A program made the translations under genes and the position numbers. From the NCBI RefSeq assembly GCF_002157205.1, contig NZ_CP021358.1, positions 2,418,001 through 2,482,000 of the forward strand: 64,000 nt of DNA, read 5' to 3'. The notes beneath the pieces are model-generated. The model was not told the origin of the DNA. It saw only the letters and a list, made by a program, of their open reading frames with translations, and did no database searches. This DNA is from Kushneria marisflavi. GTDB lineage: Bacteria > Pseudomonadota > Gammaproteobacteria > Pseudomonadales > Halomonadaceae. Each line of letters begins with the position of its first letter. Position 1 is the first letter of the stretch. Shown piece after piece: positions 9,848 to 51,804 of the stretch.

Positions 9848-10450
9848 ATGCCCACCATGATCGCGCAGGGTTTTGAAAAGCGTTTGCGGGCGCTGTCACC
9901 ACGTCAGTCGCTGGCCTTCATGGCCGCATTGAGTGAACGACTGATGCCGAACTATCGCCTCTATGCCGAGATCGGCGACGCGGGAGATGCTCACGGCGTG
10001 GCCAGCCTGCTGGCGCTGATCTGGGAGAGTCTGGGGATTCGCGATGCCCGCATCGATTTCGAGCGCCAGGGTGAAAAGCTCGTGGCCTGTGAACCGCCGG
10101 AAGATGATGACAGCTTCGGGGCGCGTATTGCCCGTGACATGACCCTGGCCCTGTCGGCCTGCGTGGATGTGTTATCAGGCCCGGCAGGTGAGGCAAGTGT
10201 GGACGTCAGTCGCCTCTCCATTGGTGGCGTCGAGCGCTTTATCGAGATGAATGCCGGTGACGCCATCCATGACGATACCGAGCGTGAGGCTCTGATCGAG
10301 GAAAACGAGCTGATGAGCGACGAGCGGGCCTTCCAGCTGGCAGTACTGGAGAGCGTCGAGACGCAGACACTGGATCGTGAAGGATTGCGTGCGCTGCGAA
10401 TGCTGGGGAAAAACGAGGGCGTCAGTAATCTGGGCCTGACGGCTGAATAG
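9848..10450 (+). CDS. DUF416 family protein (YjaG-like)
   Basis: The 200-residue soluble, acidic protein matches the YjaG/DUF416 family in length and its N-terminal pattern (F-E-K-R-L-x-x-L-S-P-R-Q-S-L-A-F), with no membrane segment or known catalytic motif. Function is unknown in the family. The start has GGAG about 9 nt upstream. It is convergent with hisF, separated by a perfect palindrome. Confidence 0.8.
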   Translation: MPTMIAQGFEKRLRALSPRQSLAFMAALSERLMPNYRLYAEIGDAGDAHGVASLLALIWESLGIRDARIDFERQGEKLVACEPPEDDDSFGARIARDMTLALSACVDVLSGPAGEASVDVSRLSIGGVERFIEMNAGDAIHDDTEREALIEENELMSDERAFQLAVLESVETQTLDREGLRALRMLGKNEGVSNLGLTAE

Positions 10451-10472
10451 ACAAGAAGCGGAGCCTGCGGGC

Positions 10473-10498
10473 ACACGGCGTCGAGGTCGACGCCGTGT
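10473..10498. terminator. 12+12-bp palindrome between convergent genes
   Basis: ACACGGCGTCGA and TCGACGCCGTGT form a perfect inverted repeat with only 2 nt between, midway between the stops of the DUF416 gene (10450) and hisF (10510). It has no U-tract on either strand. Position suggests a bidirectional terminator or RNA 3'-end stabiliser. Confidence 0.55.
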
Positions 10499-48631: not shown

Positions 48632-48943
48632 TTACTGGGTGTAGCGGGCCACGTTTGAGAGCCTGGGGTCTGCCTTGGGGTTGTGGCGATAGAGCAGGGC
48701 TGTCTTGCCGATACTTTGTACCAGCTCGGCGCCGGACTGCTTAAGCAGATGCTGAATGATCTCGGCCCGCTCGTCGCGTTCGGCGCCGGCAATGCTGATC
48801 TTGATCAGTTCGTGGTCGGTGAGTGCTCGCTCGAGCTCACCCATGACACCCTCGGTCAGGCCCTTGTCACCAATCCGGACAACCGGGTTGAGAATATGGC
48901 CGACGCTACGCAGGGTTTTCTTTTGTGCCGCTGTAAGGCTCAT
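48632..48943 (-). CDS. yhbY: CRM-domain RNA-binding protein YhbY
   Basis: The 103-residue single CRM domain associates with pre-50S ribosomal particles. Conserved blocks: MSLTAAQKKTLRSVGHILNPVVRIGDKGLTEGVMGELERAL, HELIKISI and the GxxG-type loop near SIGKTALLYRHN. Encoded opposite greA and divergent from the degraded rlmE, another 50S assembly gene. Confidence 0.95.
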   Translation of the reverse strand: MSLTAAQKKTLRSVGHILNPVVRIGDKGLTEGVMGELERALTDHELIKISIAGAERDERAEIIQHLLKQSGAELVQSIGKTALLYRHNPKADPRLSNVARYTQ

Positions 48944-49099: not shown

Positions 49100-49737
49100 G
49101 TGACACGCGCCAAAATGCCCCCTGCCGGCAGTAAGGCTTCAGCCGGTAATGGCTGGATGAAGGAGCATTTTGACGATATCTGGGTAAAGCGCAGCCGGGC
49201 CGATGGCTACCGTTCTCGTGCCAGCTACAAGCTGCCTGAAATCGATGATCGCGATCGTCTTTTTACAACCGGATATGAGTATAGTGGATGTGGGTGTGGT
49301 GGATGGAGTCAGGTCGCCATGGTCCGAGTCGGGGATTAAGGGCATATCGTTGCCACTGATATCCTCGAAATGGATGCCACTGCGGGTGTGGATTTCATTC
49401 AGGGTGACTTTACGGAAGTAAAGCACGCTGCATGCTATGCTCGAGGCGCTGGGCAATCGGCAGATCAACGTTGTGCTATCAGACATGGCCCTCCGTCTGG
49501 GCGGGCAGATGGCCATCGATCAGCCGGGGACCATCTATCCTGTGGAACTGGCAGATGGCCCAGCAGGCACTAATGCCGGTTGGCGATTTCCTGATCCGGA
49601 TCTTCCAGAGCGAGGGTTTTGATCAGTGTCTAAAGGAAATGCGCCTTCGGTTCGATAAGGTAGTGACTCGCAAGCCCTATGTCTCGCGTCCAGAATCGCG
49701 GGAAGTATATCTGCTGGGTCGCGGTTTTTACGCATGA
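49100..49737 (+). pseudogene. rlmE: Degraded 23S rRNA (uridine-2552-2'-O) methyltransferase RlmE/FtsJ
   Basis: The N-terminus from GTG 49100 is normal (WMKEHFDDIWVKRSRADGYRSRASYKLPEIDDRDRLF). A +1 insertion near 49274 and a loss of about 7 nt near 49290 then scramble the SAM-binding VDLGAAPGG region, which now reads YEYSGCGCGG. TAA 49337 stops that frame. Later homologous segments lie in other frames: [15 protein letters not shown] in the first, [17 protein letters not shown] (from 49437) in the second, [30 protein letters not shown] ... [12 protein letters not shown] (49555-49737) in the third. The catalytic Lys of FVVKVFQ is Arg (FLIRIFQ), and SDMAPN has become SDMALR. In place between yhbY and ftsH. 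Confidence 0.9.
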
Positions 49738-49824: not shown

Positions 49825-51804
49825 TTGAACGACATGGCCAAGAATCTGATCCTATGGTTGATTATCGCTGCAGTATTGCTGACGGTATTCAATAATTTCA
49901 GCGTCGATAATTCGCCGCAGGCGATGAACTATTCACAGTTCGTCGAGCAGGTGCAAAATGACCAGATCCGTCAGGTCACCATTGATGGTTACGACATCCG
50001 CGGTGAGCGCGATGACGGGTCAACCTTCCAGACCATCCGTCCTTCTGCGGAAGACCCGCGTCTGATGGACGATCTGCTCAGCAACAATGTAACGGTAATA
50101 GGCAAAAAGCCTGATCAGCAGAGCATCTGGTCACGGCTGTTGATTGCCAGTTTCCCCATATTGCTGATTCTGGGCATCTTCCTGTTCTTCATGCGTCAGA
50201 TGCAGGGTGGGGGTGCTGGAAAGGGTGGTCCCATGAGCTTTGGCAAGTCCAAGGCCAAGCTGCTGTCTCATGAACAGGTCAAGACAACCTTCAAGGATGT
50301 GGCCGGGTGTGATGAGGCCAAGGAAGAAGTCGAAGAGCTGGTCGACTTTTTGAAGGATCCTTCCAAGTTTCAGCGTCTTGGCGGTCAAATTCCGCGTGGC
50401 GTTTTGATGGTGGGCCCTCCGGGTACCGGTAAAACCCTGCTTGCCAAGGCCATCGCCGGCGAAGCCAAGGTGCCCTTCTTCACCATTTCCGGTTCCGACT
50501 TCGTCGAGATGTTTGTGGGGGTGGGTGCTTCACGTGTGCGCGACATGTTTGAGCAGGCCAAAAAGCAGGCACCCTGCATCATTTTTATCGATGAGATTGA
50601 TGCGGTAGGACGCTCGCGTGGTTCCGGCATGGGTGGCGGACACGATGAACGAGAGCAGACCCTGAATCAGTTACTGGTCGAGATGGATGGTTTTGAGGCT
50701 AACGAAGGCATCATTGTCATTGCCGCCACCAACCGTCCTGATGTGCTTGATCCCGCACTGTTGCGTCCGGGCCGCTTCGACCGTCAGGTGACCGTGGGCC
50801 TTCCCGACATTCGCGGACGCGAGCACATTCTGGGTGTACACCTTCGCAAGGTACCGCTGGCCGATGACGTCAAGCCGGAGATGATTGCACGTGGAACGCC
50901 GGGCTTTTCCGGGGCGGAACTTGCCAATGTGGTCAATGAGGCCGCCCTTTTTGCGGCACGAAAGAATCGCCGGCTGATCGGGATGGCCGAGCTTGAAATG
51001 GCCAAGGACAAGATCATGATGGGGGCCGAAAAGCGCTCAATGGTCATGTCCGAAAAGGAAAAGCGCAATACGGCCTATCACGAGTCTGGCCATGCCATCA
51101 TCGGTCTGTTGATGCCTGAGCATGACCCGGTCTACAAGGTCACCATTATCCCCCGTGGTCGTGCGCTGGGTGTGACGATGTTCCTCCCCAACGAGGATCG
51201 CTACAGCTATACACGTCAGCAGATCATCAGCCAGATATGCTCCCTGTTTGGTGGTCGTATCGCCGAAGAGATGACGCTGGGGCCCAATGGTGTCACTACA
51301 GGCGCTTCCAACGATATCAAGCGTGCCACGGAGCTTGCTCATAACATGGTAGCCAAGTGGGGGCTGTCACAGGAGATGGGCCCGCTGATGTATGACGAGG
51401 ATGAGTCACATCAGTTCCTTGGTGGCCCGGGTGGCGGTGGCAGCAAGTTCAGTTCGGCAGAAACATCATCGAGAATGGATCGCGAAATTCGCCGCATCAT
51501 TGATGAGTGCTACAAGCAGGCCGAGCAGATTCTGCATGATAACCGCGACAAGCTTGATGCGATGACCGATGCGCTGATCAAGTTCGAGACCATCGATGCC
51601 GATCAGATCAACGACATCATGGAAGGGCGCGATCCGCGTCCGCCCAAGGAGCCTGGCAGCAGTGGCCCGAGCGGTGGTCTGAGTGCGCCGGATACCAGCT
51701 CTTCTGATGTGCGACCGGTTGAGGACCCGGATGGAGATGCAGACAGCGCTGATGATACACGGCGGCGTCCCTCTGATCCGCTGGGCGGCTCTTCCGGACA
51801 TTGA
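49825..51804 (+). CDS. ftsH: ATP-dependent zinc metalloprotease FtsH
   Basis: Membrane AAA+ protease that degrades sigma-32, LpxC and misassembled membrane proteins. The 659 residues have TM helices at about 7-27 and 108-128, Walker A GPPGTGKT (about 197-204), Walker [12 protein letters not shown], the second region of homology and the zinc site HESGH (about 419-423). The C-terminal tail is Gly/Ser/Asp-rich. I chose TTG 49825 ([12 protein letters not shown]) with TGAGGG at proper spacing; ATG 49834 is the alternative. Confidence 0.97.

Follow-up and report, generated by a model that had tools for sequence, protein, structure and literature searches.

A decayed rlmE gene beside ftsH in Kushneria marisflavi and its probable displacement by a foreign RlmE homologue

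The 64,000-nucleotide stretch of the Kushneria marisflavi genome analysed here (the window) carries a remnant of rlmE (49100..49737, plus strand) between two intact neighbours, yhbY (48632..48943, minus strand; TIGR00253, 85.8 bits, cut-off 78.5) and ftsH downstream (49825..51804, plus strand; TIGR01241, above cut-off). RlmE, a conserved enzyme of ribosome assembly, is costly for E. coli to lose, and yhbY-rlmE-ftsH is the ancestral gene order, the same as in E. coli K-12. The remnant retains homology from end to end with six intact Kushneria rlmE genes, and two of its pieces, 49100-49339 and 49432-49737, match the Pfam FtsJ family separately. Alignment with intact rlmE genes of three Kushneria relatives (G002, G003, and G009), used as the reference for indels, places four frame-changing lesions on the plus strand: insertions of one base at 49267 and at about 49419, and deletions of 7 bases at 49296..49297, within the scrambled SAM-binding motif, and of 5 bases at about 49552 (49552..49553). 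A TAA at 49337-49339 is in frame with the first piece. The codon at 49597-49599, preceding FQGEG and corresponding to the catalytic Lys K164 of E. coli, is CGG (Arg), and is Lys in the intact copies.

Among sites that do not vary across the three intact relatives, the window rlmE has changed at 16/204, 18/207, and 14/129 of codon positions 1, 2, and 3, respectively, versus 0-2, 0, and 7-13 changes when each intact gene is left out in turn as a control. Equal change at all three positions shows an unconstrained sequence, beyond what chance or sequencing error would give, and with a broken frame, an internal stop, and neutral rates the gene is neither open nor constrained as a coding sequence; it is dead. 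The native rlmE of G007 has a similar pattern, with 18, 16, and 13 changes unique to it at codon positions 1, 2, and 3 versus 0, 0, and 4 in its intact sister G009, and this relic has no indel, only a stop. A preliminary description of the window had recognised a pseudogene in the conserved site upstream of ftsH, with about four frame changes, a TAA at 49337, a scrambled SAM-binding motif, and Arg for the catalytic Lys, and had argued for real decay rather than sequencing error; all of this holds, the four indels mapping close to the positions it gave.

That description had also left a choice between replacement by a second methyltransferase and tolerance of the loss. A search of the entire genome (one contig, 3,667,185 bases) for FtsJ-family proteins favours the former and leaves no need for the latter, finding an intact RlmE-family protein of 206 amino acids at C1:784780-785397, which we call RlmE2. 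It scores 296.2 bits on NF008390, the NCBIfam equivalog model for RlmE (cut-off 269), with 302.9 bits for an intact native Kushneria RlmE; the older model TIGR00438 (cut-off 300.15) does not separate the two types, since both fall below its cut-off (254.6 for RlmE2 and 254.9 for an intact native). RlmE2 is 57-59% identical to native Kushneria RlmE, and 81-88% identical to proteins of Pseudomonas and Stutzerimonas, the nearest named species outside Kushneria. The K-D-K-E catalytic tetrad of RlmE (K38/D124/K164/E199) is retained in all 53 RlmE2 and all 41 native sequences in our alignment. Two of these residues, K38 and D124, are also named in PMC8854578. No alignment column cleanly separates RlmE2 from native RlmE at an 80% threshold; a looser listing includes P138, F171, T54, and others, with Pro at position 138, after motif IV, in 40/41 native sequences versus Ala or Tyr in 51/53 RlmE2 sequences. 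A TlyA-like FtsJ protein (C1:3211719-3212276), considered as a substitute, belongs to another family, and RlmE2 fits far better.

Together with genes for a flavoprotein and an RlmP/MRM3-like SPOUT (SpoU-family) methyltransferase, rlmE2 makes up a block of about 3.3 kb that is colinear with genomes of Pseudomonas and Stutzerimonas. The FAD protein (L008:7633-9279, plus strand, in G000) matches PF21688, its nearest solved chain is 3NLC (VP0956), and it is a candidate rRNA-modifying flavoenzyme; many genera show it linked to genes for rRNA methyltransferases. An open reading frame with a RelA/SpoT domain is also present near the block in G000 (L008:10814-11983, minus strand). The methyltransferase partner has an N-terminal, L30-like MRM3-like substrate domain (PF22435, 53.9 bits over a cut-off of 27) and a SpoU domain (PF00588, 90.6 over 29.7), and scores 53.3 bits on the RlmB model, far below the cut-off of 160.15. 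Its nearest solved relative is 7QIU (E 4.5e-25), followed by 2I6D, MRM3, and RlmR, and so, judged by score alone, the partner appears nearer to the A-loop enzymes than to RlmB or the tRNA enzymes. The structure 7QIU is listed in Table 1 of PMC12123411 as that of Bacillus subtilis RlmP, the Gm2553 enzyme.

Among ten Kushneria genomes, RlmE2 is present in four (G000, G004, G005, and G007), and the same four have a broken native rlmE, whereas in all six others the native rlmE is intact and RlmE2 is absent (Fisher p 0.005). The indels and stops differ among the four relics. The four carriers do not form a clade on four core genes (AU p 4e-38), nor on rlmE itself (p 0.011), and thus the block was either gained repeatedly, or acquired a single time with later loss in some lines. 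The surroundings of the block in G005 differ from those in the other three carriers. In G000 the block has 148-base direct repeats of a nudK-like gene on either side, the gene being broken there and duplicated in part (L008:6482-6629 and 10143-10498); in G003, which has no block, the gene is single and uninterrupted (L345:5966-6562, minus strand). Such repeats would also allow clean excision. Fourfold-site divergence of the block is 0.17-0.24, versus 0.29-0.45 for four core genes in the same genome pairs, which suggests transfer within the genus, although the higher GC3 of the block may depress its figure.

The same displacement is seen in many other genera. We read the ftsH locus in 75 RlmE2 genomes (four Kushneria, 59 from a survey, and 12 further named genomes, with G023 and G024, which duplicate G410 and G390, counted once), and the native rlmE is intact in none, being broken or missing in 75/75. 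In 58 of the 59 survey genomes yhbY still adjoins ftsH, at a distance of 276-759 bases; the gap is 866-913 bases in Kushneria with an intact rlmE. A native remnant is detected at about 1e-4 or better in ten of the survey genomes and at 0.006-0.009 in two, and is undetectable in the other 47. An RlmE match is present in 384 of 391 Pseudomonadales genomes; nine of these have multiple matches, in each case RlmE2 together with a broken native copy. RlmE2 is carried by at least 61 of the 391, a lower bound because weaker-scoring loci were only sampled for synteny. There is no RlmE match at 1e-8 in the remaining seven (G261, G302, G342, G428, G486, G529, and G585), and the function can thus be lost in some lineages; six of these seven belong to one family, f34. 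Within the host family (201 genomes), multiple RlmE matches are confined to the four Kushneria, and a class-wide sample of 281 genomes yielded no added clear RlmE2 carriers, with multiple matches only in G000, G004, and G234.

Gene neighbourhood and phylogeny agree on the separateness of the two types. We used tblastn to class 192 RlmE loci by their neighbours, and none is linked to both ftsH and the partner genes. In 80 named loci, some of them incomplete, FtsH was found in none and a FAD or SpoU partner in 77; in a further 112 (L161-L272), for which weak partner matches below fixed bit scores were discarded, 53 are ftsH-linked, 53 are FAD- or SpoU-linked, and six have neither. Five of these six (G220, G463, G407, G390, and G576) have the partner genes several kilobases away on the same contig, and the sixth, G534, lacks both. 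In an RlmE tree of 94 sequences (201 thinned at 90% identity), RlmE2 forms a single clade (SH-aLRT 99), with one change of linkage type if four unlinked sequences, which lie inside that clade, are omitted. Native Kushneria RlmE groups among the Halomonadaceae. Kushneria RlmE2 falls not with its host family but within a set of nine (SH-aLRT 96) whose named members are Pseudomonadaceae, as expected of a xenologue. Two genomes of another genus in the same family (G029 and G052) have RlmE2 in a different gene order, grouping with an Alteromonadaceae genome (96), and their copy would, from its position in the tree, derive from a second donor. On an FtsH tree of 106 sequences (46 from RlmE2 and 60 from native genomes, after omission of 29 RlmE2 genomes represented by no more than a short FtsH fragment), RlmE type changes at least 14 times, eight of these changes being forced by well-supported branches. 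Displacement of the native rlmE by RlmE2 is recurrent across related bacteria.

The RlmP-like partner is closely associated with RlmE2. Among 80 chosen genomes it is found (E 1e-78 or better) in 39/40 with RlmE2 versus 3/40 with the native type (Fisher p 8e-18, uncorrected for relatedness), 15 of the 40 native genomes being confirmed as ftsH-linked and the remainder classed by score; one additional weak match among the natives, in G300, has 37% identity. The partner accompanies RlmE2 in eight of the nine families holding both types, and in the ninth, f33, it is present in natives too. Association of the FAD gene is looser (31/40 RlmE2 versus 8/40 native genomes). Three f33 genomes (G301, G411, and G248) combine an RlmP-like gene with a native rlmE, whose linkage to ftsH is confirmed in G301 and G411, and in G411, which lacks RlmE2, the FAD gene is directly next to the RlmP-like gene.

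We conclude that the native, ftsH-linked rlmE is very probably dead because a foreign RlmE2, acquired in a three-gene block from a Pseudomonadaceae-like donor, took over. The block of rlmE2, flavoprotein, and RlmP/MRM3-like methyltransferase genes would have entered Kushneria as a unit, with RlmE2 then making Um2552 during late 50S assembly and its partner perhaps methylating the A-loop next to U2552, at G2553. With Um2552 supplied by RlmE2, the native gene would lose constraint and decay, probably through missense changes, stops, or frameshifts and later through deletion, with yhbY and ftsH staying in place. Either redundancy or incompatibility with the modified A-loop after the arrival of RlmE2 may drive this decay, and the lack of any examined genome with both copies intact is compatible with redundancy, with incompatibility, or with traceless loss of the cassette.

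An alternative is that the SPOUT partner itself makes Um2552, freeing the native rlmE to decay while RlmE2 acts on some other target. Enzymes of this class can make Um2552, as RlmR does in Thermus according to PMC12123411, and the near-constant presence of the partner with RlmE2 would fit; however, RlmE2 retains the fold family, catalytic tetrad, and equivalog score of RlmE, G534 has RlmE2 and neither the partner nor a native rlmE, and in G301 and G411 the partner coexists with a native gene still beside ftsH, all of which make this reading improbable. We consider it still less credible that the lineage simply tolerates loss of Um2552 and that the second RlmE copy is a coincidence; Thermus without RlmR is described in PMC12123411 as having no phenotype, and seven Pseudomonadales genomes manage without an RlmE match, but coincidence does not account for a native gene that is broken or missing in every RlmE2 genome read and intact in the six Kushneria without RlmE2. 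That the native rlmE is functional, its lesions being sequencing error or programmed frameshifting, is refuted by the neutral substitution pattern, and comparison of the locus among relatives, which the preliminary description had proposed, gives four distinct lesion sets in four genomes with the catalytic Lys replaced in all of them.

Displacement by RlmE2 resembles known cases of xenologous gene displacement in that a foreign homologue is present and the native copy has decayed in situ; it differs in that the same swap is repeated often, with relics at various stages and a linked partner gene. RlmE2 shares family and catalytic tetrad with E. coli RlmE (FtsJ/RrmJ, b3179), which like the native Kushneria gene occupies the ancestral place between yhbY and ftsH, but it belongs to a separate clade, is not linked to ftsH, and is 55% identical to the E. 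coli protein. In the literature searched, most subscription papers lying outside its coverage, we found neither a displaced rlmE nor the RlmE2 block described. The relics form a natural series of the swap, beginning with a single stop (G007) and ending with full removal of the gene, as a divergent RlmE and an RlmP-like enzyme take over, and they carry a warning for annotation, as rlmE missing beside ftsH does not mean that RlmE is missing from the genome.

The partner's closeness to RlmP (B. subtilis YsgA), MRM3, and RlmR, seen in 7QIU as its best solved relative and in a PF22435 score over the cut-off, leads us to propose that RlmE2 and the partner methylate adjacent A-loop nucleotides; unlike those enzymes, this putative one adjoins rlmE2 in gammaproteobacteria. 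In human mitochondria, according to PMC8854578, the modifications made by MRM2 (RlmE type) and MRM3 (RlmP type) are interdependent. The bacterial pair would likewise join an RlmE-type to an RlmP-type enzyme, but it is genetically linked and moves between genera. We tentatively raise the further possibility, which we think rather doubtful, that the two constitute a mobile interdependent A-loop module (Um2552 plus Gm2553) with which native RlmE becomes unneeded or incompatible, its catalytic Lys being knocked out before decay, as the Lys-to-Arg change shared by the Kushneria relics would illustrate, and that the flavoprotein is a further rRNA-modifying enzyme. If the pair does modify neighbouring A-loop nucleotides, it would provide a genetically tractable model of mitochondrial MRM2/MRM3, and a means of asking why enzymes of core rRNA modification are replaced.

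Only one rlmE column has one base common to the four Kushneria relics and another common to G002, G003, and G009. It is the middle position of the catalytic Lys codon, and all four relics read Arg there; the other three intact Kushneria copies share the base of G002, G003, and G009. Since the relics are not a clade, the shared Lys-to-Arg change looks convergent. In a test made post hoc, a simple neutral model that fixes the ancestral states predicts 0.02-0.06 columns of this pattern per gene, and 0.0004-0.0013 at the eight catalytic-codon positions, which is suggestive of convergence at the catalytic Lys.
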